Assembly: GCA_948144175.1 (NCBI GenBank)
Contig: CANXME010000309.1
Location: 1,247,001 to 1,311,000, forward strand
Direction: 5' to 3'
Length of the DNA stretch: 64,000 bases
From: Closterium sp. NIES-65
Lineage: Eukaryota; Streptophyta; Zygnematophyceae; Desmidiales; Closteriaceae
Shown here: in pieces, positions 6,249 to 55,186 of the stretch
Position numbering within the stretch: position 1 is the stretch's first letter
Layout of the letters: the number at the start of each line of letters is the position of its first letter
Translations under genes and position numbers: made by a program
Notes under the pieces: generated by a model
Told to the model about the DNA's origin: nothing
What the model saw: the letters and a program-made list of their open reading frames with translations, nothing else
Databases searched by the model: none

Positions 6249-6295
6249 TGGTATAGAGCAGGTTCCCTGTGGGAACTTCGCCTAGGGCCCACCGA

Positions 6296-7083: not shown

Positions 7084-7183
7084 CTTTCTGCATATCTACA
7101 CGACCTGCCCTGCCTGGTGAGCACAGTCCCACTGACACTGCAAGCTCCTTCCCTGCTGCTTGCACTGCGTTGCTGTCGTCGCC

Positions 7184-30775: not shown

Positions 30776-31587
30776 TGCATACAGTATGGACAGGATACGA
30801 TTGTAGTTTACAAAATATATTTTAATTATAAAAAGATATAAATATGAAAATATAATTTGGCAAAATCGATGATAAAGGGTTGCTTCGCAACCCAAAAAAA
30901 GGCTACTTATGCCCATCGTTTTTGTCACGCTGTGTGGATTTGCCGCACCGCACCGCGTGTCGTCCTGGCCGCAGCGTGATTCAGCGCCCTTCCCAACCAA
31001 TCAACGAAACAACCACCGATTTTGGTTGTCATCTGTGAGGGGATTGGGCGGCATAGCTTCGCATGTAACTCATCGGCAACTCCTTTCCAGGCAAAAATGC
31101 CGAACCACCCCAACCGGCTTCCCCAACCAAACACGCAGTTCCCGAGGCTGGAAAATCTGTCTGTTTGCTTTTCTGAGATTCTAAAAGCCTTATTAGCGGT
31201 CTCAAACCGATGTAACCTGCTTCAGAACGTATTGTACCTTGATTAACCGTTTCGTCGAAGTTGGTAGGAGCTTCCCAGCATCAACACCAGCACCTCCAGC
31301 AAACCTGTCTGCTTTTGCTGGTACAAGGCATGTCTGCAAATGTATACCTATCACTTGAGTTGACATGTTGCTTGTTGACAAGAGCTCTAAAGAAGAGACA
31401 GCAGTCTCTGCGGTTTCTGTGACTTGGCTGTCTGGTCGGAATATATGCGGATGGCAACGTTATGTTAAATCAGAACCAGCACCCCCATTTTCAGGCGTCT
31501 CCCTGCTGTTGAAGAATTGTATTCAGCCATGCATTTATTACTTCCGCTTCTTCACAGTTATTGTCCTAGTTACCCGCAACATCGGGA
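30776..31587. other. 5' flank of the fucosyltransferase gene
   Basis: No retroelement sequence and no convincing coding sequence. The first 130 bp are AT-rich, the rest is of mixed composition. It should contain the promoter and 5' untranslated region of the gene starting at 31588, but no core promoter element stands out. Confidence 0.45.
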
Positions 31588-34500
31588 ATGCCGACAGTCT
31601 TAAGAGCTAGCTCGGTCGATGCAGTTGTAGCAGAGACAGCAATAGCAGCTAGCCAATCAGCAAGCAGCATGCGGAGGCAATTGAATCCGCGAATAAACGG
31701 GCGATCATCAATAAAGTCGCAATTATTCACGCGAATACAGTGCCGATTACTCGTCGCCACTCTGTCACTTACGCTGCTCGCGCTTCGCTACGCAAACGCC
31801 AAGGTATGCCCTAGGTCATAAACGCGCTACTGTCTTGTTTCATTAGGGACGACAGCTCTTTCAGTGCTTTCGATGTATCCCGTTGCTTCAGCGTTCAATG
31901 TATCATGTTACCTTGCTGTCGATCATGCCACTCGAGGCCCTCAAAATAGATTTTTGAAGCAATTCCTCGCTGTTTTCCTATTCTCCCGGTCTAATTTCAC
32001 GTTACATTCCCGTCTATTCCACACGTTATTCTCCCGTCTGATTACACGTTTCATGCGAATCAGCCTGTCGCAAACCAGTCGCCGCGATATGGCGAGTCTC
32101 TAGCGCAAGCTCAGCTTAGAGCCTTCATTCCTAGGAGGCGTCTGGGGCTCTACTTATTCGCTGAAGGCGGGCAGGATGAAGTCCTGGGTGATTTCCTCGT
32201 GAAAAAGGCAGCCAAACCGCAGACACAATCCGTGCAGTTGGTGCAGGAGCAGCAGAAGCAGCAGCCGGAACAATGGCAGCAGCATCAGGAAAAGCAGCAG
32301 AAGCAGCAGCAGCAACAAGTGCAAGGCAAGGAACAAGGTGTGGGGAAAGTTACGAATCAGGGGCAAAGAGTTGGACAGGTGTGGGCTGACGAACATGCGC
32401 TGGCCCAGGCGTTGGGATCAGGAGAAGATGTAGCGCAACCGCCGCCGCAGAAAGCGTCAATGCCGCCGTTGCAGGAAGCGCAACCACCGCCAGGGCAAGC
32501 GCCGGGTGGCACGGAGGCGCAAGCGACTCCACGGGAGGAGAAAAGTTCGGGCAGAAAAAGTCCACCACAGGAAACGGCCGGTCAGCAGGAGGAAAATTCG
32601 GGGAAAATAGAGGGTGAGCAAAGTAGAAACGAGGGAGAAAGGACGCAGGAGGAGCGAGGTAGGGGTGGGGAGCACTGGGAGAGGGGGGACTGGGAGGTCA
32701 TTCCAGGTGTGAGCTCCCCGGGAAAGGCGGAGAGAAAGGCGGAGGGAAACGCAGGGGTGAAAGAGGGCGGTGGGAAGGCGGAGGAGCGAGGCAGGGGTGG
32801 GGAGCACTGGGAGAGGGGGGACTGGGAGGTCATTCCAGGTGTGGCGACCTCCCAGGGAAAGACGGAGGGAAAGGCAGAGGGAAAGCCGGAGGGAATGGCA
32901 GAGGGTAACGCAGGGGAGAGAGATGGTGGCAGTGGGAAGCCGAGCTACAGGCAGGGGTCGAGGTTCGACAGGGCTGCTGCGATGAGTGCTATGAGGCGGA
33001 GGAGAGAGGGCGCGTGCTGGAGCAAGGAGGAGCGACACCTGTACCACACGGTGAGAATTGGTGAACGAATGTGAAGAGCGCGGTGGTGGGAGGCCGAGCT
33101 ACAGACAGGGGTCGAGGTTTGACAGAGGTCGAGGTTTGACAGAGGTCGAGGTTTGAGAGGCCTGCAGCGATGGGTGCTATGAGGTGGAGGAGAGAGGGCG
33201 CGTGCTGGAGCAAGGAGGAGCGGCACCTGTACCACACGGTGAGAATAACAGAGTGCCTGTGTGAGTGCATGTGTGAGTGCATGTGTGAGTGTATGTGTGA
33301 GTGCATGTGTGAGTGCATGTGTGAGTGCATGTGTGCACTATAAACAACACTAAGGCGTGCTGGAGCAAGGGGAAGCGGCACCTGTACCACACGGTATGCA
33401 AAAGTCACTTCGAGATGCAGCGGAAGTGAAAGTTCAAGTTTGCAGTGGTTCAGATCAGACCCTTTCAAACCTGTGGTCGATTGCTTGCTTCTTTTTCCCT
33501 CCTCTCTCCCCTTTCCCACACAGGCGAACCCAGACCCCCCGTCAGCAGCCTTCCAAGCAGCAGTGCGGGCGCATGAGGCGATGCAGAGGGAGTGCATGGG
33601 GACTGGGAAAAGGGAGGAGTGGGAGTGGGTGCGGAGTGGTGACTGGTGAGTGATTTTCTGAGAAAGGAAGAAGGAAGAGAGTGGGGGGAGTTGCGCTGGT
33701 GCGTCTGTGAGTGGGAGACAGTGTGCGTCTGTGAGTGAGGGAGTGAGCGGTCGCATTGGGCAATGCAGAGGGAGTGGGGACTGACTGGGAGAAGCGAGGA
33801 GTGGGAATGGGTGCAGAGCGATATGACTGTTGACTGCATTTTCAGGAAAGGAACTGGCAGAGGAGGAGGGGGGAGGGGAGTGGAGAGGTGGGGAAAAGTG
33901 TGCGCTGGTGCGTCTGCAACATGCATTTAGGCACCTATGCATCCATGCATCCCTGCACCCATGCATCCCTGCACCCATGCACCCATGCATCCATGCATCC
34001 CTGCACCCATGCATCCATGCATCCCTGCACCCATGCACCCATACACTCTTGCATCCATGTATCCATGCATCCATCCGTCTATGCACCTGCCCACACCAAC
34101 AGGGACAAGGACAGGCCTCGATACGGACCAGACAGGAAGCCATGCCAGTACATCTACGTCCCTCCCTTCCCCCGAGGTGGGTGTCTTCCCCATTCCCCCC
34201 TTCCCCCACTCCACCTGTGACTTTCCACCCCTTTCCTCACTCTATACGGACCTTCCCCCACCCCACCAAGCCATGAGCCATGCCATCATGACCACGCCCT
34301 GGTCCTTAGAAGCCGCCCCTCCCCTTCCCACCTCCACCCGCCGCCTACACCCTTGCACTTCCATATTCCTTCTCCCTCTCGTCTCCTCCTCCCCCACCGC
34401 AACTCTCACACTCACCTTTCCCATCAGGTCTGGGCAACCGGTTAGTGAACCACGCGAATGTGTTGGTGCTAGCTCTCATCACACACCAAGCCATCATCTC

Positions 34501-37500
34501 CCCTGTCTTCCCTATCTCCCCACTCTCTTTTCCCTCCTCGCCCCTCACACCCCCATATCAGGTCTGGGCAACCGGTTAGTGAACCATGCGAATGCGTTCA
34601 TGCTGGCGCTCATCCCACAGCGAGCCATCATCACAATGCCCTGGTCCTTCTGCTCCCCTCTTCCCACTCCCCTTTCCCCTCTTTGCAACCTCCTCTTTCC
34701 CCTCTCTCGCCCCTCACACCCCCATATCAGGTCTGGGCAACCGGTTAGTGAACCACGGGAATGCGTATGTGCTGGCGCTCATCACCCACCGGGCCATCAT
34801 CACCACGCCCTGGTCCTTCTGCTCCCCAATACCTTCATTTCCCTCTTCCCTCACCCCCAACAGGTCTGGGCAACCGGCTAGTGAACCACGTGAATGCGTT
34901 CATATTGGCGCTCATCACACAGCGAGCCATCATCACCACGCCCTGGTCCTTTGTGGTCCGTCGATTCTGCAACCCCTTTGGCAACTCCACCTCGTGGTCG
35001 CTGCCCTTTCCTGTGCACAGGTGCGCATTTTGATATAAGCACTCTGCTGCACTGCCGCACTGCCGCACTGCCGCACTGCCGCACTGGCGCACTGGCGCAC
35101 TGCCGCACTGGCGCAGTGCTGCAGTGCCGCACTGCCGCACTGGCGCACTGCCGCACTGGTTAGAAACTAATCTCACCCGAGAGCCAAACCGATTCTGCAA
35201 TCCCTTCGACAACTCCACCTCGTGGTCGCTGCCCCTGCCTGTGCACAAGCGAGGTGCTTTCAATATAAGCACACTGCTTAATGACCTGTCTCACTCAAAA
35301 GTCAGATTGATTCTGCAATCCCTTCAACTCCTCCACCTCGTGGTCGCTGCCTGCCCTGGCCCGCTCACAGGTGAGTCGAGTTTTGAGTCGACTCAAAACT
35401 CGACTCACCACCTCGTGGTTGCTGCCCTGGTCCGCTCACAGGTGAGGCAAATAGTCAGTGCCGATGAGATGAGACGCTCCCTGTGTGAGCCCTTACTCTC
35501 AAAGCGAGTCATCATCACCGCGCCCTGGTCCTTTCTAGTTCGCCGATTCTGCAACCCCTTCAACAACTCGACCTCATGGTCGCTGCCCCTGCCTGTGCAC
35601 AGGTGCGTTTTGCCCCACCCCAGACATTCCTACTGATACAGCGGGCCATCATCACCACACCCTGGTCCTTCGCCGTTCGCCGCTTCGGAAACCCTTCAAC
35701 TCCTCCACCTCATGTTCGCTGCCCTGGCCCGCTGTCACAAGTGCGTTTTGCCCCAGACATTCCCATATAAAGCAGCCCGGTTATAAAGCAGCCCGGTTAT
35801 AAAGCAGCCCGGTTATTAAGCAGCCCGGTTATGACATTCCCATTCACTTAAGAGCCAAGCTTCTGCAAGCAATCCCTTCAGCACCAACTCCTCCACCTCC
35901 TAGCCGCTGCCATGGCCGGCTAATGGGTGCTGTTTGGCCCAGACATCCCCGTTACAGGCAGACTGGTTATAGGTATTCCTCACGACTCCATCTTTCCGTC
36001 CTATCCTCTCTGCTACAGTCCTTCATTGGTGTGGTTAAGAACCGAACGCTGGAGTTTAAAGACGTAGTTAAATACCACACTCGGGGTTAGCGGAATTTGG
36101 AGGAGCCTGCCTAACAAATCAACTCCCCGTTTCACTCCTCTCCCGCTGTGCAGCTCGTTCATTGGCGTGGTCAAGAACCGAACGCTGGAGTTTAAAGACG
36201 TAGTTAAGTACCATTCGGAGCGAGGAGCAGCAGACGGAGCAGCAGGAGGAGGGGTAGCAGCAACAAGAGGCGGAGTAGCAACAACAGGAGGAGCAGCAGC
36301 AGGAGGGGGAGGAGCAGCAGGAGGGGGAGGAGCAGCAGGAGCAGTAGCAGCAGGAGCAGCAGCAGCAGGAGAGGCAGGAATGTTGGAGCTGTCTGCAAAA
36401 GAGGTGGCTGTGTTGATTCGCAACCGCACTGTGAACATTCACCTGGCTGGCAGGTGAGAGAGGGGGGGGGAAGGAAAGGGGCGTGGGGTGGGGTGGGAGG
36501 TGAGGCATTCAAGTGTCCTACCCTCGAAGGAAGAGGTGGCTGCGCTGATTCGCAACCACACTGTGAACAATCACCTGGCTGGCAGGTGAGCGGGGGGAAG
36601 GGAGGAAGTGGATGGGGGATTTGGGTTGGGGTGGGGCCGCGGAAGGAAGGGAGGACTGGTGGGACTGGGGTGCTGCTGCCCTCAAAAGAAGATATGGCCC
36701 CGTTGTTTCGCAACCGCACTGACCATTCACCCAGGTGGCTGGGAGGTGAGGGGAAGAGAAAAGGGAGGTCGAGGTGAGGGGGAGGGGTAGTGGAATATTT
36801 GAAACCAAGAACATTCATTGGACAACCCTATAAGGGCGAGGGAGTGGGGGGAAGGCACACACACACACGTTGTTTCGTTTCTTGCATTCTTGCACATGGT
36901 GTTTTGTTTCGTTTCTTGCATTTTTACCCATCGCATTCCTGTGTGTAGTATTGCATCTCTTTCGTATCCATGTTTTCTGTACCCACTTTGTATCCAGAGG
37001 CGTGCACACGTTCTGCAAAAATGCATGGGAGAGCATCGACGCAGCCGTGTTTTTTGAGCATGGATATTTTAACCCGTCTGCTTCTTTATCTGCACCCATC
37101 CCATTCCTGTGCGTGTCTCTCCCTTGTCCATGTGATTGTGCCTTCCTAGAGGAGCGCACACGTTTTGCACGGATGCGTGGGACAGCATCAACACAGCTGT
37201 CTTCTGGAGCATGGCAATCGATGTTTACTTCGTGCCCAGCCTCTACTACCTCCCCACATACGCTGTAAGCCCCTTCCATATAAGAACCTTCCATGTGAGC
37301 CTCTACTACTCTCTACCAACCATGTCTGGCGCGCTCATGTGTTTTGGAGCATGGCGATCGATGTCTACTTTGTGCCAAGCCTCTACTACCTCCCCACATA
37401 CGCTGTAAGCCCCCGTGTTATATCACTATATGTATGTATGTATGTATAGATGTGTATGTATGTGCTTCTGTGAATTTTCGGGCCTTTTTTCGGTAAGTAA

Positions 37501-40500
37501 AAGGGGGGGAGATATCCCGCATTCTCCCCTTCTTTCCCCGACCACCGCCTTTTGACAAACATTTGTCTCTTCCCACGTGAAAGAAGAGTGTTTTTGAGAC
37601 ATCTCAAGAACCCTGACCACCTATAAAACCCCTGTCTCCCCTCTTCCCGCACACTCCAGGCAACTCTGAAAAGGTTATTCCCCGCCCGCCTTGTGGCCAC
37701 GTGATAAAAGTGTTATTTTGAGATTCCCCGGGGAATAGGTTTCCTGCTTCTCAAAATAACACTCTTCCCCCACGCTCCAGGCAGCTCTGAATAGGTTATT
37801 TCCCAACCACCGTGTGCTGAGCTGACTCACACCGTATGTTTTATGAGAATTCTAAAAAAACATTCCCCAACCACCGTGTGCTGAGCTGACTCACACCGTA
37901 TGTTTTATGAGAATTCTAATAAAACATTCCCCAACCACCGTGTGCTGACTCACACAGCACGGTTCCTCACTCCTACTCACCAGGCAGCTCCTCCCTCTCA
38001 CCCTCCTTCCCCACCCACCAGGCAGCTCTGAATACGTTATTCCCCGACCCCTGTTTGTTGACTCGCGCTGCTGGGTTTCTCACTCCAATTCCTCTGCAAC
38101 CCCTCCCACGCTCCCCGTTCCCGCCCACCAGGCAGCTCTGAATAAATTATTTCCCGACCACTGTGTGTTTATTCACACTGCTCGCTTTCTTCTGCACCCC
38201 GGAAACCAGCTCTGGACGGCAATTAGCGTCTCTTCCTTCCCGCCACCACTATCCCCCTTCACGCCCCTAATTCCACCCACCAGGCTGCTCTGAATATATT
38301 ATTCCCCCGACCACCGTGTGCTGACTCACACCGCTTGGTTCGTCCCTCCTACACCCCCCCACCTCCTCCCTCTCACCCCTCTTACCACCCACCAGGCAGC
38401 TCTGAATAGATAGTTCCCCGACCACCGTGTGCTGACTCACACTACTGCTCGCTTCCTCTTTCCTGCTCAGTTCCTCCCTCCCTCCCTCTCACCCTCCTTC
38501 CTCACCCACCAGACAGCTCTGAATAAATTATTCCCCGACCATCGTGTGTTGACCCACACCGCTCGGTTTCTTCTTTCCTTCTGCTTCCCCCACCTCCGCC
38601 CTCTCACCCCTCTTTCCCCACCCACCAGACAGCTCTGAATAAGTAAATCCCTGACCACCGTGTGTTGACTCTCACAGCTTGGTTCCTCACTCCTACTCAC
38701 CCCACATCCTCCCTCACTCCCTCTTACCACCCACCAGACAGCTCTGAATCAGCTATTCCCCGACCATCGTGTGTTGACTCACACTGCTCGGTTTCTTCTG
38801 CACCCCGACAACCGGCTCTGGGCGGCGATCACTCGTCTTTTTCATGCCAACCTGGCGCACCACTCCCACAGAGTCGGCATTCAGGTAGTGCAGAATGGTG
38901 CAAGGAGGTTGCAGTGAGGTGCACTGCGGTAAAATGCGGTGCAGTGAGGTGCAGCATGGTGCACAATTCCAGGTTTGCAGTTGACACACAGGTGCAGCCA
39001 GGTATCGTGAGGTGCAGTGAGGTGCAGATTAACAGTCCAGTCCATCCCCCTCCCAAAGCTCAAGTTGATGTGCCATACGCACCTCTTGGACCAAGTCAGC
39101 CCCTATCCTCCCCCTCTCTCCCCTCCTTCCCTCCCTCTCCCTTCTTCTCCCCTCCACCCCCCCCCCCATTCCCCCCCATATGTGCACTCATGTGCCACTC
39201 TCTTCAGATCCGATCAGCACTCGGGATTGATCTCCCATTGGCTGACCGTGTCCTCTCATGTGCTGCTGATGTGGCACGGTACCTCCCTACCATTAGCTCC
39301 TCTAACCAGGTTAACTTTCTCTCTCCCTCGCCCCAAATGTGATTCTAGCGAATCCTTGAATCGTATTTAGTGCAAGTTTTGTCACTGCATAGCAAAACTG
39401 GATTATCTTCTAAGGTGCCCCAAAAGTTTTGTCCTTGCATAGCAAGACTAGATTATCCCTGGAAATGCATATGTTTCTAAGTACTTTGATTTTCTATATT
39501 AAATATTCCCAACCCTACCACCCTTCCAGACACAGCCAGCCAACATCACATGCAAGGCCGATATGCCTTGCACGGTACACAAAACACCCTTTTCCCTCCT
39601 CTACCTTCTTCCCTTCCCTATCCAATGGCCCCCTTCCAGACACAACCAGCCAACAGCAACAGCCAAGAAGGAACGGAGGGCGAGGGAGGGACGGTGGGGG
39701 TGGTGGTGGCATCGCTGAGCGCGCAGCATTGGATAGACATGCAAGGCCGATACGCCCTGCACGGCGCACATGACTCCACCCTCCTCAGCTTCTGCACGTG
39801 GGTACACTCGCTTAACAGAATAATTGAACGCGTATAAATATGTCTATGCTATGTTTTTTTTTTAATATATATATTTGCATGTTCAAAGATGGTATTCATT
39901 ATGCACAGCTCATGCACGGGTGCACTTCCGCTCTTGTGTGGATGTTTCTGTGTGTGTTCCTTCGCCTGCTACCTGTCAGGTTGAGTGGTCAGTGGGCGGA
40001 GAAATGGACCGACACCGGATCATGTGGCTTCTGTTGTGTTTGCCCCTCTGCCACTCTGCCCCTCTGCCACTCTGTCACTCTCCCACCTGTCAGGTTAAGC
40101 GATCAGAGGGCGGAGAAATGGACCGACACACAATTCGAGTTTGCAGTCATGGAGATGTGGCTCCTCAGCTTCTCGTATGCTCCTTTTTTTTTGCACGCTC
40201 GTTCTTTTTTCTGTTAATTATCTGAGGCGGCTTAGAATAGTTGGAGTTCGCCGTCCTGGAGATGTGGCTCCTCAGCCTCTTTTGCATTCCCTTCGTCCAC
40301 TCCCTTTCCTTGCCCTCACTTCGCTTATTTTTGTTTTGGTTGTTCCTTCACACTTCGGGTGTAACGATCAGACGTTTGGCTCGGCTCCGTCTTTTCTATG
40401 TTTGTCCACATGCCTACTCTTACATCAGCTTTCCACTCGTCTTTGCAGACCTTCCAATATGCAATTCACTCTGCTTTTGGTTGTGTCTTCAGCACCCTTC

Positions 40501-40954
40501 TTGTGCGTTCCCAACCCAACACCCCAAAATGTCTTCCTTCCCCTCCTCACAGGGACCGCATTCTCATTTCAGACTTCTCGTCCTTCGGCTGGGTGGCCCT
40601 AGGCCTGGCCGGTATTGACGGGTACTCCATGGCGGTGGCTGTGATCCACGCCTTTCAGATCGACTGGCGCAAGGAGAATCGCCCCGTGTGCGTTCCAATC
40701 TCACCGGAGCCTTGCGATGTGCTTGGTGCCTCTGCTTCACTGGTAAGTCCACTTCATGTACATGCATGCTCATATTCAATATGTTGTTACAATGTATAAC
40801 GTGTTGACCTAATTGTTTTGTTTTCTTTCTCTAATAGTCTATGTGCAAGGGAAACCACACTGTGGAGGGCGTGGAGCTGGAGGGAGACCAATTGCGTGAT
40901 TATTCTACATGTCCTGGATCGTATTTGGGTATACGAGATATGAGAGCCTTTTGA
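31588..40954 (+). CDS. GT37-like fucosyltransferase, 13 exons
   Basis: Probable Golgi glycosyltransferase of the xyloglucan alpha-1,2-fucosyltransferase family (GT37), adding fucose from GDP-fucose to wall glycans. My exons are 31588-31803, 32115-33050, 33524-33645, 34103-34176, 34864-35020, 36154-36453, 37150-37264, 38738-38884, 39208-39309, 39640-39801, 40107-40174, 40553-40742 and 40838-40954. All junctions are GT-AG and in phase, totalling 2706 nt (901 residues). An N-terminal hydrophobic anchor lies near residues 50-65 (L-L-V-A-T-L-S-L-T-L-L-A-L). Family motifs in order: C-W-S-K-E-E-R-H-L-Y; G-L-G-N-R at 450-454; C-N-P-F...S-T-S-W-S-L-P; Y-F-V-P-S-L; L-F-P-D-H-R...P-D-N-R-L-W; V-G-I-Q-I-R near 686-691 (donor-nucleotide motif); L-L-S-F-S-D...S-S-F-G-W-V; and S-P-E-P-C. 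It is longer than usual (about 550) because of a Q/E/G-rich insert in exon 2 and an Ala/Gly-rich insert in exon 6. The start could instead be the ATG at 31669. Acceptor substrate unknown. Confidence 0.85.
32199..32960 (+). repeat. low-complexity insert with duplicated block in exon 2
   Basis: Within exon 2, about 250 residues rich in Q, E, G and K separate the G-Q-D-E-V-L-G-D-F-L segment from C-W-S-K-E-E. A block reading E-R-G-R-G-G-E-H-W-E-R-G-D-W-E-V-I-P-G-V occurs twice (about 32652-32720 and 32784-32850). It is followed by short K-A-E-G repeats. It lies in the stem region between membrane anchor and catalytic domain, where length is usually tolerated. Confidence 0.75.
33084..33393 (+). 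repeat. two partial copies of the end of exon 2
   Basis: 33084-33238 repeats the last part of exon 2 (from the G-S-R-F-D segment to H-L-Y-H-T). 33355-33393 repeats only its last 39 bp or so. Both still end in a donor (ACG then GTGAGA or GTATGC) at the exact exon boundary. Between them lies a GTGAGTGCATGT minisatellite (about 33250-33335). Confidence 0.85.
33250..33335 (+). repeat. 12-bp minisatellite GTGAGTGCATGT in intron 2
   Basis: Seven or so near-perfect units. Each begins with GTGAGT, which is itself a consensus splice donor. It lies between two copies of the exon-2 end. Confidence 0.85.
33754..33830 (+). repeat. partial copy of the end of exon 3
   Basis: Repeats the second half of exon 3 (GCAATGCAGAGGGAGT...GAGTGGGAATGGGTGCAGAGCG) with small indels. 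No clean donor remains. Confidence 0.75.
33925..34090 (+). repeat. CATGCATCCCTGCACC minisatellite in intron 3
   Basis: Irregular 8/16-bp units CATGCATC and CTGCACCC repeated about 20 times just upstream of exon 4. It generates long but meaningless open frames on both strands. Confidence 0.85.
34266..34823 (+). repeat. four partial copies of the first part of exon 5 (GLGNR exon)
   Basis: Copies at 34428-34490, 34562-34655 and 34731-34830 each begin with ATCAG-GTCTGGGCAACCGGTTAGTGAACCA, that is an acceptor plus the nucleotide-binding G-L-G-N-R-L start of exon 5. They fade before the exon's second half. A fourth scrap at about 34266-34312 keeps only the GCCATCATGACCACGCCCTGGTCCTT part. The intact exon follows at 34864-35020. 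Confidence 0.9.
35041..35160 (+). repeat. CACTGCCG/CACTGGCG microsatellite in intron 5
   Basis: About 14 eight-base units CTGCCGCA with CTGGCGCA variants. Confidence 0.85.
35371..35408. repeat. perfect 38-bp palindrome at a duplicated splice donor
   Basis: The 19-base arm GTGAGTCGAGTTTTGAGTC is followed immediately by its exact reverse complement. Its first bases are the donor of the preceding exon-5 fragment. Confidence 0.95.
35766..35830 (+). repeat. 16-bp tandem repeat in intron 5
   Basis: Four copies of ATAAAGCAGCCCGGTT, the last one slightly changed. Confidence 0.9.
36019..36080 (+). repeat. partial copy of the start of exon 6
   Basis: CTACAG acceptor followed by TTCATTGGTGTGGTTAAGAACCGAACGCTGGAG..., matching the beginning of exon 6 (36154 onward) for about 60 bp, with a one-base length difference at its start. 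Confidence 0.9.
36520..36750 (+). repeat. two partial copies of the end of exon 6
   Basis: About 36524-36586 and 36684-36746 repeat the exon-6 end (AAAGAGGTGGCTGTGTTGATTCGCAACCGCACTGTGAACATTCACCTGGCTGGCAG), each keeping a GTGAG donor. Confidence 0.88.
36998..37070 (+). repeat. partial copy of the start of exon 7
   Basis: TATCCAG acceptor then AGGCGTGCACACGTTCTGC...GAGCATGG. It matches the first half of exon 7 (37150-37264), then diverges. Confidence 0.88.
37322..37404 (+). repeat. partial copy of the end of exon 7
   Basis: Repeats the second half of exon 7 (TTTTGGAGCATGGCGATCGATGTCTACTTTGTGCC...CACATACGCT) and keeps the same donor GTAAGCCCC. Confidence 0.92.
37660..38700 (+). repeat. eight-unit array of the start of exon 8
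   Basis: Units begin at about 37660, 37781, 38022, 38132, 38284, 38396, 38513 and 38629. The intact exon is at 38738. Each has a pyrimidine tract, a CACCAG-type acceptor and GGCAGCTCTGAATAARTTATTCCCCGACCACCGTGTGYTGACTCACACYGCTCGG, coding for L-N-K-L-F-P-D-H-R-V-L-T-H-T-A-R in the better copies. Spacing is mostly 109-121 bp. The unit at 38132 also keeps a short stretch of later exon sequence. Further small scraps lie near 37861-37970. Confidence 0.92.
39530..39595 (+). repeat. partial copy of exon 10
   Basis: CCTTCCAG acceptor then ACACAGCCAGCCAACA, joined to ATGCAAGGCCGATATGCC...GGTACACA. It matches the start and a later part of exon 10 (39640-39801) with the middle absent. Confidence 0.85.
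39980..40285 (+). repeat. partial copies flanking exon 11
   Basis: Upstream, about 39980-40020 repeats the acceptor and first part of exon 11 (GGGCGGAGAAATGGACCGACAC). Downstream, 40231-40285 repeats its second part (TGGAGTTCGCCGTCCTGGAGATGTGGCTCCTCAGC). The exon itself is placed at 40107-40174 because only that copy has both halves, and its donor GTATGC joins in phase to exon 12 to give L-L-S-F-S-D, the expected family motif. Confidence 0.85.
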
Positions 40955-41365
40955 TCTGTTTCAGTTCGCTTGTGTTGTAACAAACGGTATCGGTGGAATG
41001 TTATGAATGAACTTGCAGAGTGCGCAAAATAACGAATAACGAGAAAGATGGATTACTGAATGACGATACAAGGAAAGTGACGGAAATTTATAAGGGGAAT
41101 CCTAGCTAGGCGAGGAGGTTGGGCGAAGGATGGCTCGGTAATGTTGCAATTGGAGCGGGGCCGACTCAGGGATGGTTCAGTACGACGAAATAGGCCCAAC
41201 AAGTTCGTCGCGTGACACTCGGGATGGCCGCGACGAGTGCCTCAGTAAGGACGTGTTACGGTTCGCCTTTGATTACCACGATCAAAGTCGATCAATAACT
41301 TATGGGAAGCTAAGGCGGCGATTTCGGGCAATCGGGAGCAATCACTTGATTGCGATCAGCTGATT
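40955..41365. other. 3' flank of the fucosyltransferase gene
   Basis: No gene or repeat recognised. It should hold the 3' untranslated region. It ends at the GCCCC target duplication (41366-41370) of element D. Confidence 0.5.
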
Positions 41366-41370
41366 GCCCC

Positions 41371-42338
41371 TGTTAACGGGAATGGAGTGTTGGCCCCGCC
41401 CTCGCTTGGGCAACGCCGACGACTTGGTCGGATGTACGGGAGTAACAGCCGACCGTTCACAGTGGGAGAGCTGCTCGACAGGCTTCGTCGAGCTGCAGGG
41501 GACCGCTGTGGTGTTGCTGTCGACCAGGGAGCTCGACAGCTGCAACTGATTGGTCTGGGAGACGGGTGGGACGTCGACCAGGACCTGCAGCTCGACCGGG
41601 AGGTCTCCGGAGTATTCCGTCGACCTGCAGCTCGACCGGGAGGTCTCCGGAGCATCCCGTCGACCTGCAGCTCGACCGGAAGGTCTCCGGAGCATCCCGT
41701 CGACCTGCAGCTCGACAGGAAGGTCTCCGAGCATCCCGTCGACCTACAACTCGACCGGGAGGTCTCCGCGGCATCCCTTCGACCTGCAGTTCGACCGGGA
41801 GGTCGACGGAGCAGTCTGTCGACCTGACAAGTGAACAGCGGTCGACGAGGGGAGCTTGGTGCCAACCGCTGACTGTTCCGGTCGACGGAAGGGGTCTGTC
41901 GACCAGGGGGTAGCTCGACGGGAGTTGTGGTCGACCAGAAGGTGCGCACACCTGCGAGCGTGCGCACTGGTGTGTTCTACGGGGCAACGCTGGACAGCCG
42001 CTCTGCTGCAGCGTTGGCACGCCGTCGACCTGCTCTGCTGGCACGTCGCCCTTCTGCAGTGCTGGCGCGGCTCCTCTACGCAACGCTGGCAGGCGGTCGA
42101 CCGAGCTGTGCTGGCGGTCGACCAGGCTAGCTGCAGGGTTGCTAGGTGCCTGATGTAGTCATTCTGTCATTGCTTGTTCAATCATTATGTAATTTCGATT
42201 TTGCCTAGTGGAAACTCTTGCCGATTTCTCTCGTGAATGTGCAAGAACTAAGGAACCAATCAAAGCTACGATCATCTCTAGTAGTTCGTACCAACCCCCG
42301 TAGTCTAACTCACTACCGTTGTAGAGTGACTCTCCGCA
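41371..42338 (+). repeat. 5' LTR of copia element D
   Basis: 968 bp, rich in GTCGAC. It contains about six copies of a 38-40-bp unit GACCTGCAGCTCGACCGGGAGGTCTCCGGAGCATCCCGTC (about 41580-41820). Confidence 0.9.
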
Positions 42339-43203: not shown

Positions 43204-46200
43204 TCAAAAAGTGAGCAAGTGAGGCAAGACAGGCACAAGACCCAGCTGCGTGCAGCAACGCTGATGATCACAAGGAGCAAGTGCCTTGGTGAAGACATCA
43301 GCATTGTTGGCCTCAGAGGCCACGTACGCAAGTCGCAACTGTCCACGCTGCTGTAGCTCACGAGCAAGAAAGTAGCGGAGAGCAATGTGCTTTGTCCTGT
43401 GCTCCAGTCGCTGCTCTCGACACAAGGCCAGCATGGCCTTGCTGTCTACGTACAGGACTGGAGGAGAACGAGGCGGCTCTCCAAGGTCGGTCAGCAGGTA
43501 GGTGAGCCAGCGAAGCTCCTGAGCAGCCATAGCCCCGGCGTAGATCTCAGCCTCACAACTGGAGCCGAGAACAGAAGACGAGCGAGTAGCCCGCCACGAG
43601 ACAGAGCCGGAACCAAGGCCGAAGGTGTAACCCTGTGACGACCGCTGCGTAGCCTGGTCGTCAGCCCAAGAAGCGTCCGCGTGCCCAGTGAGGACCACTG
43701 GACTGCGCCCTCCAAGCACTAGCCCCATGCCCGACGTACTGCACAAGTAGCGCAACACCCTCTTCGCTGCAGCCATGTGCTCTGGTCGGTGTCTCCCAGG
43801 AGCAACATAGCGTGCGAGAATGCTGAGAGGGTATGCAAGGTCAGGTCGTGTGCAGGTCATCAGGTACATGAGGCAGCCAACAAGCTCTGCATACGGGCCA
43901 CTCGACTCTACGGACTCATCCGAAGGCAGAGCTGAGAGCGAGTGGCGAGTAGGCAGAGGAGTGGCCTGAGGCGAGGAGTACGTGAAGCCGAAGCGCTGAA
44001 GGACCTGCTGCACCATGTGTGACTGAGTCAGGGTAATGGTGCGGCGTGCTCTGTCTCGGGTGATCTGCAAGCCAAGGTAGCTGCGCAGTTCACACAAGTC
44101 AGTGCACGTGTGTCTCTTCTGCAGCTCGGACTTCACGTAGGCGAGTCCAGCAGTGTCCGCTGTGGCAAAGACCAAGTCGTCGACGTACACGAGGATGTAG
44201 AACGGCGGCAGAGAGGTGTCGGTGCGCAGAAACAGCGACGGGTCGGTAGTAGAAGGAGCAAACCCAAGTGCCGCAAGCGTAGTCCTCAGTGTGTCGTGCC
44301 ACTCACGTGGCGCCTGGCGGAAACCGTAGACTGGACGCCGGAGACTCCACTGGGTACCAGGAGGGAAAGACCCAGTGAAGCCAGGTGGGCGACGCAGCCA
44401 GATCTCCTCGTGCAGGCTACCCTGCAAGAAAGCTGTGCTGAAGTCGAGAGAGTGCAGCTCGTAGTCGCGGTGAGCAGCAACGTGCAGCAGTACCCGAAGA
44501 GTAGTCATCTTCGGGGTGGGGGAGAAGGTCTGAAAGTAGTCAACTCCCTGTCGCTGACTGAAGCCACGAGCCATGTAACGCGCCTTAAAGACAGGCGGAG
44601 AACCCGGCGGCCGCTTCACCCTGAAAATCCACATACCACTGACGATGTTCGCCCCAGGAGGGGGAACAGCGTCAACGTAGGTGCCTGTGGACTTCCAGGA
44701 AGCCATCTCTGCATCCATAGCTGCCTGCCACTGAGAGGAGTAGGGACCCTCTATCGCCTCCGCGTAAGAGCGCGGAGTCGGGATGTCTAGTGCATCCGGG
44801 TCTCCCTCAGGGGCGAGCAGTACAGACGCGAGATGAGGTGAAGCGGCGGCCAGACACTGGAACTCCTCCTGCCTGTCCTCAAGGACGTCCGTGCCTAGGG
44901 CACACTCACCCCCGATGGACGGAGGACAGGCAGACTCAGACTCAGCGACAAGACTAGCAGCGAAGTCTAGACGACAGCGTGCAGCAAAGTCGACAAGCTC
45001 AGTGACAAGGGAAGACGCAGCAGAAGACTCGAAGGAAGGGTCAGTGATAGCAGTAGCAAGGAGACGCGTGACAGTGGGACTGGCAGCACGAAGAGAGTCC
45101 AAATCCGGGTCGGCAAGAGCAGGAAGAGAGGAAGCAGGAGGAGAAGGCAAAGGGGCACGCAGAGGAGCTGTGGACGGACGCAGAGACATCCGGTGCGTGC
45201 CAGGGACAGGAGGAGGACGCTGACGTGAACCGCGACCACTAGTGCGAGCAGTGCGAACAGGCGACGCAGGACGAGACGCAGGCTCACGACGCTCAGTAAG
45301 ACCTCCAGTCGGACCAGCGTAGGGAGAAGGAGCAGGCAAAGGGAAGGCAGGCTGTAGCTGTAACTGGGACAGGACTGGCTGTGGACCCTCTAAGGGAGGA
45401 GGAGGAGGACCAGGAGAAGGTGTCAGACCAAGAACCTGCTGCAGAAGCGGAAAGAAGTACGGTCGGGGCCGCGTGGCGACGCCAGAAACAGCAGGGACAG
45501 CACCAGTACCTCCAGCAGGAGTACCCGCTCCAGCAGCACCTCCAGCAGCACCTCCAGCACCCCCAGCAGCACCAGGAGCACTGCCAGTCGAACCGCCAGC
45601 AGTAGTCTCAGCGCCAACACCCACAGTAGTACCAGCTCCAGGAGAACCCTCAGGCCCAGCAGCTCCAGCACCCACAGCACGAGCACCTCCGGGACGCGCG
45701 GCAGCAGCACCCTCTGCAGCCGAAGAACCTCCAGCACCCGCACCACGCCTCCAGCGCCGGGCAAACCACTCACGCAGCTCCTGTGGGGAGAGTGGCTCTC
45801 GGCGAGACGAAGCACCTCCAGGCGGAGAACCTCCAGGCTCAGCACCCTCAGGCAAAACACCGCCAGGCGGAGCACCCCAAGTCTCAGCACCTCAAGGCTC
45901 AGCACCCCCAGGCTCAGCACCCCCAGGCTCAGTACCCCCAGGCTCAGCACCCCCAGTCTCAGCACCCCCAGGCTCAGCACCCCCAGGCTCAGCACCCCCA
46001 GGCTCAGTACCCCCAGGCTCAGCACCCCCAGACTCAGCACCCCCAGGCTCAGCACCCCCAGACTCCGCACCCCCAGGCTCAGCACCCTCAGGCTCAGCTC
46101 CCGCAGCAGCACCAGAGTCACCAGTGACCTCGACAGGCTCGACCGCGTCTACCTGGGACACACCTGAAGGGGCAGGACCCTGAGGCGGGAGGGGGTCTAC

Positions 46201-48089
46201 CGGGGGGGGACCTGGTACCAAGAAGAGCGGGGGCGGGGGAAGGGAAGGAGTGCAGTAGGGGAAGAGGCGGTAGTAGGGTACCGACTCATCGAACGTGACG
46301 TCCTAGGAGGAAAGAACACGTCGAGAGGTGGGGTGGTAGAACTGCCACCCAGGGGCGTCGGGGGGGAAGCCCAGGAAGACGCAGGGAGAAGCGCGAGGGG
46401 ACAGCTTGTCCGCAGACAAGTCGCGGACAAACGCCCGAGATCCCCAGACCCGGAACGCCGACGCATCGCCAACCTTCCCCGTCCACAGCAGGGCTGGGGA
46501 GGTCTCCGGCCTGGAGACTCTGGGGTGGAGGTTGATCTGATGCGCCGCGTACCTGACCGCAAACGGCCACAGAAAATGGGGGGCAGCCGCATGCATCATA
46601 GACGTACGAGCGACGTCCATGACCATGCCAATGCGGCGCTCTGCAATCCCATTTTGCTGCGGTGAGTCCGGAAGCGTGAAGGTCTGCCAGATGCCTCGCG
46701 CACGACAGAAGGCACGCAGAAGGCCAGAGGAGAACTCTCCGCCTCTGTCCGAGTGCAGACGCAACACAGGAAAGTCCGAGCCAAAGCTCTGCCTGAGCTG
46801 GAGACGAGCTGCGCGGATCCAGTCGATCAGCACCTCAGTGACATCACCCTTGCTGCGCAAGGGGAAGACTGTGGTGTAACGCGAGTAGTCGTCAACCACC
46901 AACAGGAAGTAGCGCTCGTGACCGAGTCCACGGACGCGGGCAGGGCCCCACACGTCCATGTGAAGTGTCTGCAACGGAGCCTCTGTCGGAGGAAACTGGG
47001 AGGAGTGAGGGGCAGCACGCTGGCGCCCCTCGACACAGGGGACACAGGCAGGGCCAGGGCCCTGAGGAAGGGGAGGGAGGGACCAGGGGAGACCAGACAC
47101 AAGAAGACAAGAGGCCATGCCTCTGAGCCGAAGCAGAGAGGGGTGGCCAAGGCGGTGGTGCCAGAGGAGAGTCTCGTGAGACAGACGGCGACACGAACAG
47201 GGGGCAGACTCAGGACCAGACCTGGACGCTGCAGCAAACACCTGACCAGACGAAGGGACTCGACCCGACTCAGCACTGGGAGGAGAAGCAGTTGTCAGTG
47301 TGTACAGGCTCGACCCTGGCTGACGTCTAAACGTAGCCAGGTGGCGACCTGTGCTAGCCTCTGTGCAGTGTGTCACCCGCTGACGAGCAGGAGTGAACTG
47401 GTGGACCCCCACATCCTGTAGGTCAACACCACTCACCAGGTTCGTAGAGAACGAGGGGAGGTAAAGACCAGTCAGGGTGCCAGAGGGAGCCGCCGGACAC
47501 GGGAGGACTGTGGAGAAACGAGACAGGACAGGACCCCTAGAGGGGTCAGCCAGGGACACCACAACCGGCCGACTAAGCGACGTGAGAGTGGTGCGGTCCC
47601 GAAAGAAGGAGCGAGACGCCCCAGAGTCAAGGGTGAAGGAGGCAGAAGCCGACACAGTACCTGAGAGGGCAGACTCACTAGCACCTGAGAGCACAGACGC
47701 ACTGGCACCTAGAGCAACAGCCTCACTGGCACCTGACACAGCAGTACCAATGCCCGGGTCGGGCGGAAAGCACCGGTAACACTCACCATAATCACTAACA
47801 GTCACAGCATACATGGCAGCAAGGATGGCATCAAAGTCAAGATCAAACACAGCTACACCAGCCCTAGACAGCTCTCCCCAGCGGGGGATCTCAGAGGCCT
47901 CCGGAAACTGATGGTGCCAAGCGTCGGTCAGGCGGGCAAAGCAGCGGCGAGCGGTGTGGGTGCCCCCACACTGCTCACCCGCGCGGTCGCCGGTCCGAAG
48001 GACGTAGGCGCAGGGACCGAACGCCCCACCACGCTGACGCTGCGAGTACCACTCACGGAGCTGCTGAGGGGCGGGAACGTTGCGAGAGC

Positions 48090-48121
<32 letters not shown>

Positions 48122-49172
48122 CCACCCCCAGTGCCACTCCTCTGGGACGAGCCACTCCGACCACCTCCACCACCGCCACCCCCGCCTCCGCCGCCACCGC
48201 CGCCACCGCCACCCTCGCCCCCGCCGCTCCCACTGCCTCCTCCGCCACCACCTCCGCCGCCACCGCCGCCTCCACCGCCGCCACCAGGACCTCCACCCCC
48301 GCCTCCACCCCCACCGCCACCCCCACTCCCCCGCCGCCCCCACCTCCTCCGCCACCGCCCGCGCTAGCTCCACCCGCTCCCTTGCCCCCCTTGCTCCTGC
48401 CAGAGCGGCGCCTACCGCTGGGGGCAGACGCCGCACCGACCGACTCTAAACCAACGAGGTCGGCCGCAGCAGCAGAGGCGACAGAGGGTAGCAGGGGGGA
48501 AGGAGAACACCCCTCAAAGATGGGGGTGCGCGGGTCACCACGAGAGGCCCCTACAGCGACTATGCTCTTCTCGGCCGCTAGGAGGGACTTCTCAAGGAGG
48601 TCGACAGTGAGGGTGGTGGGACAGACAGAGAGAAACTGGTCCCTAACAGCACGAAGGGACTCAGGGAGACGGGTGACTAGAAAGTAGAGGGTGATGTACA
48701 TAGGAGGGGGGTTTTCAGCGAGGAAGGCAGCAGGAAGAGCAGCTCGGTAGCGAGTGTCACTAGCGCGAAGGTGGGTAAAGAGGTCAGTGACTGTGGGAAA
48801 GGCAGCAAGGTCAGGGAAGAGGAACGGTAGCATGAGGCGGCTCAGTGTAGCAGTGGAAGGGGAGGAGTAGCGCGCAACTACAGCGTCGTACAAGGCCTGA
48901 GCGGTCTTGCACTGACTAAAGTGTGCACGCTCGGAGGAAGGGAGGTGGCGACGCATAGCAAGACGTGCAGCAGCATCGCGTGTGGCCCACTTGGAGCGAA
49001 CAGTGGGGTCAGCATCAGTAGGAGGGGCAGGGACAGCGCCAGAGACAAAGTCAAAGAGAGAGACCTCATCTATCGCATCACACAGTAAGTACAGCTGCAG
49101 GTCCTCAATCCAGACAGCAAAGTCAATGGCGCGACCCTCAGCGTCAAAAGTCAGGACACTGGGGGTGGCCAT
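43204..49172 (-). mobile_element. copia gag and pol region of element C
   Basis: Gag opens at 49172 with M-A-T-P-S-V-L-T-F-D. A glycine-rich tract (about 48150-48390) and a knuckle-like end near 47960 follow. Protease L-D-S-G-A-S lies near 47630, integrase H-H-R-L-G-H-P near 47150 and P-Q-Q-N-G-I-A-E-R near 46650. The E-P-G-G-A linker occupies 45840-46110. RT Y-V-D-D-L-V lies near 44190, RNase H D-A-S-W-A-D-D near 43670, and the closing A-D-V-F-T-K-A near 43300. This is the best preserved minus-strand copy, with a few breaks. Confidence 0.9.
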
Positions 49173-49309
49173 TGTAGCAGCTGACAGTCTCACCGGGCAG
49201 GAAGGGTCGGGTAGCAGAACAGGAGTTGCGCCGGTCGGGTAGCAACAACACGGCAACACGGCAGCACAGCAGCTGCGCCGGTCCAGGAGCCCCACAGGAG
49301 CAGAAGATC

Positions 49310-50170
49310 GGCTCCTCGGGCGGCTCGGGCGGCTCGGGCGGCTCGGGCGGCTCAGGCGGCTCGGGCGGCTCGAGCGGCTCGGGCGGCACGGGCGGCGTGG
49401 GCGGCTCGGGCGGCTCGGGCGGCGTGGGCGTCTCGCGGACGGCTCGCGGGCGGCTCGCGGGCGGCTCAGAGGCGGCAGCACGGGCGGCTGGTGCGGCTCG
49501 TGGACAGCTGCACGGGCGGCTGGGGCGGCGAGCGGGCGGCTCACGGGCGGCTGCACGGGCGGCCGAGGCGGCTCACGGGCGACTGGGGCGGCTGCACGGG
49601 CTGCTGGGGCGGCTCGCAGGCTGCTCACGGGCGGCTGCACTGGCGGCCGCACGGGTAGGTGCACGGGCGGGTGCACGGGCGGCCGCACGGGTAGGTGTAC
49701 GGGCAGGAGCACGGGCGGGTACACGGGCGGGTGCACGGGCGGGCACACGGGCGGCTGCACGGGCTGCTCGTCGGGCGGCGCTAGGGCGGCGCGTGGGCGG
49801 CGCTAGGGCGGCGCGTGGGCGGCGCGTTGGGCAGCGCGACGGGCGGCGTTAGGGCAGGCAGCGGGCAGCGCGACGGGCGGCGCGTTGGGCAGCGCGACGG
49901 GCGGCGCGTTGGGCAGCGCGACGGGCGGCGCTAGGGCGGCTGCACGGGCAGCGCGACGGGCTGCGCTAGGGCGGCGCGTTGGGCGGCGCTAGGGCGGCGC
50001 GTCGGGCAGCGCGTCGTGCGGCGCTAGGCTGGCGCGTCGAGCGGCGCTAGGGCGGCGCTAGGGCAGCGCGTCGGGCAGCGCTGTGGGCGGCGCGTCGGGC
50101 GGCTAGCGCTAGAGCAGGCAGCGGACGGGCGCTAGGGCGCTAGGGGCGGCGCTCACGTTCGAGGGCGGGC
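49310..50170 (-). repeat. minisatellite leader of element C
   Basis: Runs of GGCGGCTCGG (49315-49430), CACGGGCGGCTGCACGGGCGG (49480-49760) and GGCGGCGCTAGGGCGGCGCGT units of 10-20 bp (49770-50130). Non-coding leader between primer site and gag. Confidence 0.8.
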
Positions 50171-50261
50171 GGTGCGCTAGCGGCTAGGGCAGAAAAAAAA
50201 AGGACGTTTCGAGGTGGTGGGCCCTAAGCACAGGTCCCACAGGGGAACCTGCTCGATACCA

Positions 50262-50393
50262 TGAGAAGAAGTGAACGAGAATGGATGAACTATGAATGAA
50301 GTGAGTACAAATATGAAACCCTAATTGGGTTGTACCCCCTATGGGATACCCCACTATAGCCTACACAAATAAGTAAGCTGTAATGTTCTGACA
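50262..50393 (-). repeat. 5' LTR of copia element C
   Basis: 132 bp, nearly identical to 42860-42991, followed by the GATTG duplication and the resumed gag sequence of element D. Confidence 0.92.
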
Positions 50394-50398
50394 GATTG

Positions 50399-51420
50399 CA
50401 CCGGCGTATGGCTACTTCAAGTTCTCGCCAGACCGGATCACCATCGCACCGCTGCAAGGTCGACGGGACCTCATCACCTGGAGGGAGTCAATCGAACCTC
50501 AGCTGGAGGTCGCCGGGCTGAAGGGCTTCGCCGACTGCAAAGTGCCAATTCCGCCCGTGGACGATGTCAAGCTGCGCGGGGAGTTTCAAGCGGCTCACTT
50601 GCTCACCTTCATGGTCATCTCGAGGTGCTGCTCACCGGTGGTGCAGCTGGCGCTCAGGAGCTTTCGAGAGCGACTCGATGCTGGTCACTAGGCATGGCAC
50701 TTCATCATGTTGACGTACCAGGTCAGGGACGACCTGTACATCAGGCAGCTGGAGGAGAAGATGACTCACATTTGGATGGGCGAGCAGGATTCGGCGACGG
50801 ATTATTGCAACCGCGCTCAATGGATCCTGGCTGAGATGCGGATGGCGGGCGCCAAGTACTCGACGGCGTCCTACATCACCCACATCGTCAAGGGCTTGCC
50901 GCGCAGCTACAATCTCATGAAGAGGATGATGATGGTGGCCGGCACGCGTGAGTCCCTCGATGAGGACTCCATCACCAGCTACATTCTTCAAGATGAGGCG
51001 ATGCAGGAGGCCGAACAGCCCACAGAGCTTCTTCCGCAGGCAAACTACGCTGCATCGACGAAGCTGAATCAGCAGCAAGGGCAGTGCGGGAAGCCGGGCG
51101 GAGGTGGTAGCGGAGGTGGGCAGTCGACGAAGGACGTCGACGAGAAGCGGTCAACGCGGGACAAGGGTCGACGAGGTGGTGGTGGTTGACGGCGGGAGTG
51201 CTGGATCTGCGGCGACCCCGACCATCTCTCCTTCGAGTGCCCCGACTGCGATGACAGCGACGAGGACGACAACAAGGGAGGCCGTAGTCGATCGGCCAGT
51301 CGTCGCCCCCGTCGAGATGAGAAGCCGCGCAAGGAGAAGCAAGCGTCGAAGAGACGTCGTCGACGAAGGACGTCGACAGCTCCAGCGGCAAGAGTCGAGG
51401 CGACGGAGAGGCGTCGTGCT
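50399..51420 (+). mobile_element. copia gag region of element D
   Basis: It resumes after element C. A capsid-like domain of the type W-R-E-S-I-E-P-Q-L...D-Y-C-N-R-A-Q-W-I is followed by a basic region and a canonical zinc knuckle C-W-I-C-G-D-P-D-H-L-S-F-E-C (about 51200-51240, spacing C-x2-C-x4-H-x4-C). This is the ordinary copia form, unlike the stretched form in elements 2, A and B. A few breaks are present. Confidence 0.85.
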
Positions 51421-51422
51421 CG

Positions 51423-54400: not shown

Positions 54401-55186
54401 GGCGGTCGAGTCCCGAAGACGCCGGTCTCGGTCAACGACTACGTTCAGCTGACGTTCGACGACGACGAGGTGGAGGAGGAGTACCGGCAGAAGGTCGGCT
54501 CGCTGAAGTTCGCGGCGACGACGACGAGGCCGGACATCGCATTCGCCTGCAGCAAGCTGGGGAGCGGCCTCACGGTGAGGAGCAACCAGCATTGGCGCGA
54601 GGTCGATCGCTGCCTCGCCTACCTCGCCGACACCCGCGACACCGCCCTGGAGTTCGGCGATGGACCAGAATCGTTGGAGCTGATCGGCTACGTCGATGCC
54701 GATGAAGTGGGCAACAAGCAGAACCGGACGAGCACGGGAGGCTACGTGTTCGTCTACGGAGGGGCCGCCGTCTCATGGTCGAGCTCGCGCATCAAGTGCG
54801 CGAGATTGTCATCGACCGAATCGGAGTACGTGGCGGCCACAGATGCCGGCAAGGAGGGGCGTCGACTTCGCTTCCTCCTTGCGGAATTCAAGCTGCTTGA
54901 CGCTGGGAAGCCGACCATCCTCCGCGTCGACAACACGTCGGCGATCACGGTCGCTGAGGGCTTGGGGTTGACGGGCAACCTCAAGCACATGGAGCGACGC
55001 TACGCCTGGCTGCAGCACATGGTGAGGCGCGGGAAATTTGTGCTGAAGTACATCCCGACCACCGAGCAGCCGGCGGACTTCCTGACGAAGGCGCTGCATT
55101 TTCTGGCTTTCAACCGGTGCACTGTCGCCATCGGCCAAGTTCGTCTGGCCGACGTCGGCGACGGCAACGACGAGGTGCAGCAGTAG
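51423..55186 (+). mobile_element. copia pol region of element D
   Basis: Protease L-L-D-S-G-C-S-H-H near 51519; integrase with H-x-R-L-A-H-V near 51950, V-H-V-D-L-C-G-P near 52140, D-Q-G-G-E-F near 52336 and P-Q-Q-N-G-M-A-E-R near 52420. A linker rich in charged residues spans 52850-53600. RT W-E-L-V...T-K-Y-R begins near 53707, Y-V-D-D-L-L-A lies near 54198, RNase H D-A-D-E-V-G-N near 54694, and the closing A-D-F-L-T-K-A near 55075. Largely open, with few breaks. Confidence 0.9.

Follow-up and report, generated by a model that had tools for sequence, protein, structure and literature searches.

The fucosyltransferase gene and the exon fragments in its introns

The window analysed here is a stretch of 64,000 nucleotides from contig C309 of the Closterium sp. 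NIES-65 assembly, and its positions 31588 to 40954 are spanned by a PF03254 (xyloglucan fucosyltransferase) gene with 13 exons. All 13 exons have GT-AG splice sites and are in phase when joined, with a single terminal stop codon and 904 codons in our model. The preliminary description had also joined the exons in phase, and this joining holds; its length of 901 codons is not firm because exon 2 has several possible in-frame acceptors, and 901 lies within this uncertainty. The predicted protein matched a single Pfam family, XG_FTase (PF03254), which we take to be GT37, with a score of 166.2 bits (E 1.3e-48). This score is far over the curated cut-off of 23.4 bits. The predicted fucosyltransferase differs from the family in having long Gln/Lys-rich and Ala/Gly-rich stretches. 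The exons are as follows.

31588–31803 (+): exon 1, with the ATG and, by eye, a signal-anchor-like segment; no fragments
32115–33050 (+): exon 2, acceptor ambiguous in frame
33524–33645 (+): exon 3
34103–34176 (+): exon 4; no fragments
34864–35020 (+): exon 5, complete copy, with the GLGNRL motif
36154–36453 (+): exon 6, Ala/Gly-rich middle with 18 bp different between contigs C309 and C763
37150–37264 (+): exon 7
38738–38884 (+): exon 8, complete copy
39208–39309 (+): exon 9; no fragments
39640–39797 (+): exon 10
40094–40174 (+): exon 11
40553–40742 (+): exon 12; no fragments
40838–40954 (+): exon 13, including the stop codon; no fragments

Each exon was aligned to positions 31000–41500 with its own position masked, and an alignment was accepted as a fragment if it scored higher than any of 60 dinucleotide shuffles. 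There were 14 queries, with exon 2 represented by its last 151 bases and exon 6 by its two ends, the low-complexity middle being omitted. We obtained 29 sense-strand local alignments above the shuffle maximum in the introns. Antisense fragments were absent from the gene, as the best reverse-complement score was below the shuffle maximum for all 14 queries; the shuffles and the lack of antisense matches together rule out chance similarity. About 29 fragments from at least seven exons had been counted previously. Our independent alignment arrived at the same number of fragments, and the actual number of source exons is eight of 13 (exons 2, 3, 5, 6, 7, 8, 10 and 11); exons 1, 4, 9, 12 and 13 had no fragment over the threshold in the region searched. 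Two of the 29 alignments (33086–33125 and 33140–33238) are read as a single fragment interrupted by a short repeat. By eye, a fragment comes either with a pyrimidine tract and acceptor of its own or with a donor of its own. Exon positions are given in brackets below.

33086–33238 (+): exon 2 tail fragment (818–936), interrupted by a short repeat, with donor
33355–33393 (+): exon 2 tail fragment (898–936), with donor
33747–33829 (+): exon 3 tail fragment (42–122), donor GT lost (by reading)
34282–34307 (+): exon 5 internal fragment (63–88), upstream, no edge reached
34428–34501 (+): exon 5 head fragment (1–74), with acceptor
34562–34649 (+): exon 5 head fragment (1–88), with acceptor
34731–34818 (+): exon 5 head fragment (1–88), with acceptor
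35190–35247 (+): exon 5 tail fragment (99–156)
35309–35351 (+): exon 5 tail fragment (100–142), altered end
35408–35428 (+): exon 5 tail fragment (124–144)
35497–35602 (+): exon 5 tail fragment (52–157), with donor
35638–35725 (+): exon 5 tail fragment (56–144), altered end
36019–36077 (+): exon 6 head fragment (2–60), with acceptor
36531–36585 (+): exon 6 tail fragment (246–300), with donor
36675–36745 (+): exon 6 tail fragment (235–300)
36998–37063 (+): exon 7 head fragment (1–65), with acceptor
37338–37404 (+): exon 7 tail fragment (49–115), with donor
37630–38687 (+): exon 8 head-fragment array with a unit of about 110 bp; eight units above threshold (+) at 37782, 37926 (beginning at exon position 18), 38023, 38133, 38287, 38397, 38513 and 38629, and one more similar unit at about 37630
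39529–39609 (+): exon 10 upstream fragment, acceptor and first nucleotides (by reading) followed by 98–154; the contrary case
39980–40015 (+): exon 11 head fragment (1–36), with acceptor
40241–40280 (+): exon 11 tail fragment (41–80)

A recount with other settings gave 28 fragments in this gene. Thirteen lay upstream of their exon and contained its start, nine lay downstream and contained its end, five reached neither edge (within 8 nt) and one was contrary. The contrary fragment (39548–39609) lies upstream, yet it matches positions 98–154 of the 158 in exon 10. Thus, the relationship between side and exon edge, which had been called strict, applies to the 13 upstream and nine downstream fragments and is not quite strict, given the one contrary and five edgeless cases. 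We found no second complete copy of any exon in the gene, in agreement with the earlier statement that each exon has one complete copy.

We also determined the coverage of local direct repeats, dropping those in which at least half was short-period tandem repeat (84 reduced to 53 over the window). Direct repeats covered 39% of the exon bases and 46% of the intron bases of the gene. With the same filter they covered 4.3% of the remaining 54,633 bases of the window, a control that is largely Ty1/copia-like DNA. Inverted repeats were absent from the gene and covered 9.4% of the rest of the window. When low-complexity filtering was turned off, 52 of the 55 local direct matches in the region of the gene touched an exon or a fragment; the other three were two short-unit minisatellites. 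Ty1/copia-like polyprotein ORFs flank the gene on both strands (521–29689 and 43207–55183), and eight of ten large ORFs tested around it contained Ty1/copia-like domains (RVT_2, rve, gag_pre-integrs).

A second contig, C763, has an identical array layout, with nine substitutions and six gap runs (two of which are alignment ends) over about 9.7 kb. An artefact of one contig was rejected since C763 repeats the array, although the two contigs belong to one assembly. Substitutions fell in exons (one), fragments (three) and other intron sequence (four), and the contigs are too similar for a comparison of allelic rates to be informative. Among their differences, the exon 6 Ala/Gly tract varies by six codons (an in-frame 18 bp) at window position 36294, and there is a 60-bp minisatellite step at 33257.

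Partial exon copies in other genes and their decoy splice sites

The assembly comprises 874 Mb in 2,400 contigs, and many profile matches in it occur on contig pairs with equal scores (duplicated contigs). According to the published study of the Closterium peracerosum-strigosum-littorale complex, NIES-65 has 876 Mb and a mean intron of 485 bp (PMC10407611). A search for XG_FTase gave 79 matches, from which we took 20 loci, each standing for a separate apparent gene or contig pair; the sample lacks at least one further pair (C1244 near 585 kb and C1295 near 921 kb). As a side observation, the GRAS family, which among algae is a streptophyte one, had 98 matches genome-wide, with several each on contigs C831, C2046 and C238. 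The flagellar Radial_spoke family had no match, but it gave none in the control genomes either, so that this result does not prove its absence.

A survey of other genes in the genome, which the preliminary description had suggested, gave positive results throughout the two main groups. At least one same-strand partial exon copy above threshold was present in 12 of the 12 intron-rich fucosyltransferase paralogues (L020–L031), and partial exon copies were present at all seven chaperonin and tRNA-synthetase loci. Five of the eight intron-poor paralogues (L012–L016) also had a same-strand partial copy above threshold. Four of the seven chaperonin and tRNA-synthetase loci (L032–L035) had been chosen for doubled partial matches in the search tables, and L036, L037 and L038 were chosen without regard to this. 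Among the CCT loci, 22 of 26 best-hit exons had fragments (L032, 6/7; L033, 3/4; L034, 3/3; L036, 4/5; L037, 6/7). At L038, copies were found at both exon stretches examined, in three matches: one internal, one ending 19 bases short of the stretch end and one starting from its second base. The antisense score was over the threshold at three loci (L012, 50 versus 41; L028, 40 versus 36; L038, 50 versus 36), so single matches at these loci deserve less weight. A gene-specific oddity is ruled out by the paralogues and the housekeeping genes, and the gene in the window is therefore not the special case for which it had been taken.

In two paralogues, L021 and L024, almost the entire aligned stretch of the GLGNR type is present twice, the second copy covering 145 of its 153 bases in L021 and 122 of 129 in L024, which means that near-complete copies do exist outside the six genes tallied below. 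These copies lie side by side and are 89–90% alike (L021 3844–4153 and L024 1948–2268, gene strand).

Arrays were seen at several loci. Directly upstream of a real exon, L032 has about 11 near-identical 124-bp units (5711–7138, gene strand), each consisting of the first 57 bases of the matched CCT exon stretch with its acceptor side, which makes a tandem acceptor array. L026 contains an array (2626–5544) of 116-bp units that are 98% alike and take in the tail end of an exon stretch of its fucosyltransferase gene. Arrays with units of 54–67 bp lie near or in paralogues at L021 68–2583, L024 1–687, L025 1625–2562, L028 4159–4875 and L029 3937–4668, with minus loci turned to the gene strand. Several paralogue loci hold arrays of 54–86-bp units without an assigned origin, and intron-only short-unit arrays exist too.

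The side on which fragments lie was tallied for the fucosyltransferase gene in the window and the five CCT loci; L035, L038 and the paralogues were not included. The edges of the 26 CCT exons were set by a simple splice-site score, with no site or a poor site for at least five. The six genes contained 94 fragments, with a maximum of 14 for one exon: 44 were upstream with the exon start, 28 were downstream with the exon end, 21 reached neither edge within 8 nt (eight upstream and 13 downstream), one was upstream with the exon end only and none had both edges. Hence, 72 of the 73 edge-reaching fragments were on the side of the exon that corresponds to the edge they contain. L032 contributed 17 of the 44 upstream fragments, which are not independent because its units belong mostly to the 124-bp array; without this locus there were 27 upstream with the start, 25 downstream with the end and one contrary. 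Such a distribution necessarily follows if a duplication has one end in an exon and the other in an intron, and the geometric argument made earlier on this basis was sound. When a complete exon copy was defined by the presence of both splice sites, none of the 94 fragments qualified.

The splice dinucleotides of the fragments were mostly intact. The decoy AG was retained in 39 of 44 upstream fragments and the decoy GT in 24 of 28 downstream fragments, compared with 35.7 and 21.3 expected from squared identity. These values do not suggest that decoys need to be destroyed or that they have been weeded out. Strong donors following decoy acceptors were fewer than expected (2 versus 8.2 in 6,757 bases). 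Control counts were 1 versus 0.5 in spacers, 1 versus 12.5 in fragments and 6 versus 19.7 in real exons. Selection against such donors was therefore rejected, as the depletion disappeared in the spacer control; the shortage is inherited from exon composition and provides no support for exon definition.

Exon association, flanking sequence and codon positions

In the unaided count, 32 of 43 repeat components at the five CCT loci overlapped an exon found by the search. Nine of the 11 non-overlapping components lay in profile gaps. Of seven peptides read there, five aligned with those parts of the Cpn60_TCP1 profile that had been lacking; none of the five reached the curated cut-off, and two were weak (E 0.12 and 0.031). 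The other two peptides gave weak CCT theta matches (i-Evalues 2.6 and 0.073). Peptides of the remaining two components had no match. With the filter off, these nine taken as exons and the fucosyltransferase gene added, 46 of 52 components were exon-associated, a somewhat favourable figure since some exons were found via their repeats. Random placement of 60–250-bp duplications, after removal of those that were whole-exon or internal, predicted 30–36%. Part of the excess may reflect the longer recognisability of exon copies.

In many clean young copies the similarity ended at the splice site. Among ten examples displayed, the exceptions were one in L014, whose flank was alike but more diverged, and one in L037 that was not exon-related. 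Over 40 bases, flank identity was 0.69 upstream (null 0.40) and 0.51 downstream (null 0.28), compared with 0.90 and 0.87 for the exon parts of the same fragments; the L032 array, in which the flanks match throughout, inflates the upstream mean. Nineteen of 44 upstream and eight of 28 downstream flanks exceeded the 95th percentile of unrelated flanks. Of the pairs at least 93% identical, 97 of 189 aligned over at least 0.9 of their offset, and these were mostly arrays. Many isolated young pairs had gaps and unlike flanks.

By our derivation, at most about half of the mismatches in neutral dead copies of conserved exons are expected at the third codon position. In the fucosyltransferase gene, mismatches at first, second and third positions numbered 66, 37 and 104 (104 of 207 at the third), which fits this limit; the 71 CCT and tRNA-synthetase fragments fail it, with 105, 85 and 405 (405 of 595 at the third). 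Mismatches private to a single fragment were distributed 18/19/23 in the fucosyltransferase gene and 36/38/111 in the CCT and tRNA-synthetase fragments, and differences between fragments of the latter group 64/60/209. Alignment gaps broke the frame in 21 of 28 cases in the fucosyltransferase gene and 37 of 43 in the CCT and tRNA-synthetase fragments. The even private changes and frame-breaking gaps of the fucosyltransferase gene are as for dead copies.

We also considered conversion of a fragment by its own exon. For an 82-bp fragment common to L023 and L026, five sites grouped fragment with fragment and none grouped a fragment with its own exon. This fragment groups by copy and not by gene, which indicates descent as ordinary DNA, and gene conversion is unsupported in this one case.

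Origin of the fragments and implications for splicing

We favour, as a fairly probable reading, a model in which introns grow by recurrent exon-anchored local duplication while exon-definition splicing spares one-sided copies. Short local duplications, giving copies of about 40–200 bp, would have one end in an exon and the other in an adjacent intron. A copy beginning upstream of the exon would contain the acceptor and the exon head and would be located upstream, and a copy ending downstream would contain the exon tail and the donor and would be located downstream. Where a duplication took in a whole exon or lay within one, it would alter the protein and would mostly be lost. Decoys with one site would survive because pairing across exons would find no partner for them, the true exon alone having both sites. 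Judged from the genomic sequence, duplication would be the cause of the fragments and exon definition the filter, and the fragments would presumably be absent from mRNA.

Serial tandem duplication, as put forward in the preliminary description, accounts for the geometry, and the fully matching flanks of the L032 array are as it predicts. It falls short in three respects. Neutral duplication predicts many intron-only duplications, which leaves the 46 of 52 exon-associated components unexplained; under it the flanks should resemble one another almost as closely as the exon parts do, so that the many unlike flanks are unexplained; and it does not yield the third-position bias of the CCT and tRNA-synthetase fragments. 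The phenomenon reaches beyond one gene, and its mechanism is understood only in part.

If alleles or homeologues that had diverged strongly underwent unequal exchange, the copy would derive from the other functional allele. This would account for both the third-position excess in the CCT and tRNA-synthetase fragments and the poorly matching flanks, and PMC10407611 reports a strain complex with genome-wide copy-number variation. We nevertheless consider this origin unlikely, since C309 and C763 are only nine substitutions apart in about 9.7 kb and the fucosyltransferase gene has no third-position excess over half (104/207). The same codon bias (405/595, and 64/60/209 between fragments), together with splice dinucleotides slightly over expectation (AG 39/44, GT 24/28), could instead mean that the fragments are functional, with decoy sites or alternative exon parts regulating splicing and being kept by selection. 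Function of this kind seems quite unlikely in view of the gaps that are not multiples of three (37/43 and 21/28), the barely biased private changes in the fucosyltransferase gene (18/19/23) and the finding that none of the 94 fragments reaches both exon edges. If whole exons had been duplicated in tandem and one copy truncated afterwards, the third-position bias would be explained by both copies having once coded, and L021 and L024 do have near-complete second copies of one exon stretch; tandem exon duplication is also a known process (PMC9013439). Truncated copies, however, would retain either of their ends irrespective of side, against the 72 of 73 on the predicted side, and no complete copy occurred among the 94, such that we give hardly any credence to this route.

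The remaining alternative involves a palindromic element with the core TTTTGAG-NNNN-CTCAAAA, which would insert or provoke breaks and leave long direct repeats, some of them with exon edges. A perfect 40-bp palindrome (35370–35409, +) lies where two exon 5 tail fragments meet, and its core, TTTTGAGTCGACTCAAAA (TCGA centre), has 13,080 exact copies in the 874 Mb; a variant with an AATT centre has 2,601, and the reversed control gave 0 for each. Centres ACGT and GCGC also occur in the loci, and the arms outside the core vary by site. With up to two mismatches allowed, 8 of 51 palindromes in the window and L012–L037 were at local direct-repeat junctions, compared with 0.9% of random positions; eight of the 51 belong to one array in L023. 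A palindrome arm of at least 8 was present in 16 of 157 gaps between copies. The other 141 gaps had none, and by a local control p was ≤0.05 for only 18 of the 157, compared with about eight by chance. As a general explanation the palindrome is very improbable, although some duplications may have arisen by this route. An extension of exon-anchored duplication to the whole genome, as a main source of intron sequence in the form of decaying and re-amplified exon-edge copies, with the palindrome perhaps partly driving it, is an idea that we put forward tentatively and with some doubt.

Tandem exon duplication copies complete exons that have both splice sites and are usable. In the AGGT model of intron gain, a duplicated AGGT-containing exon segment supplies the ends of the novel intron. 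Pseudoexons and decoy splice sites are intronic and normally skipped in spite of plausible splice sites. The fragments described here resemble pseudoexons in being intronic stretches with plausible splice sites, and differ from them in that they can be recognised as parts of the neighbouring exon, are ordered by side and occur in several genes. As in tandem exon duplication and mutually exclusive exons (PMC9013439), exon sequence would have been copied locally within the gene; unlike there, the 94 copies tallied here include no complete one. A tandem duplication with a breakpoint in coding sequence that splicing masks is likewise a feature of intron gain by tandem genomic duplication (PMC2891723). 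That process creates a new intron within an exon, whereas here the copies, with an acceptor or donor of their own, lie in existing introns. The Closterium genome study (PMC10407611) reports a similar assembly size (876 Mb, compared with 874 Mb and duplicated contigs here), and its available part gives intron numbers and lengths with exon fragments unmentioned. No report of introns packed with partial exon copies was found at the level of titles and opening lines of abstracts, in a search with few subscription papers and no bioRxiv preprints.

Splicing in these genes probably has to pass over many intact-looking decoy sites. The fragments would be fossils of former exon sequence within introns. 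If the pattern is genome-wide, it would constitute an unfamiliar route of intron growth by which gene annotation would be misled. It would also be a natural experiment on splice choice between near-identical sites, with intact one-sided decoys at many exons, in which exon definition would be directly testable by sequence and cDNA. If exon-anchored duplication is a main source of intron sequence, the spliceosome of this alga would face a standing background of near-perfect decoys.
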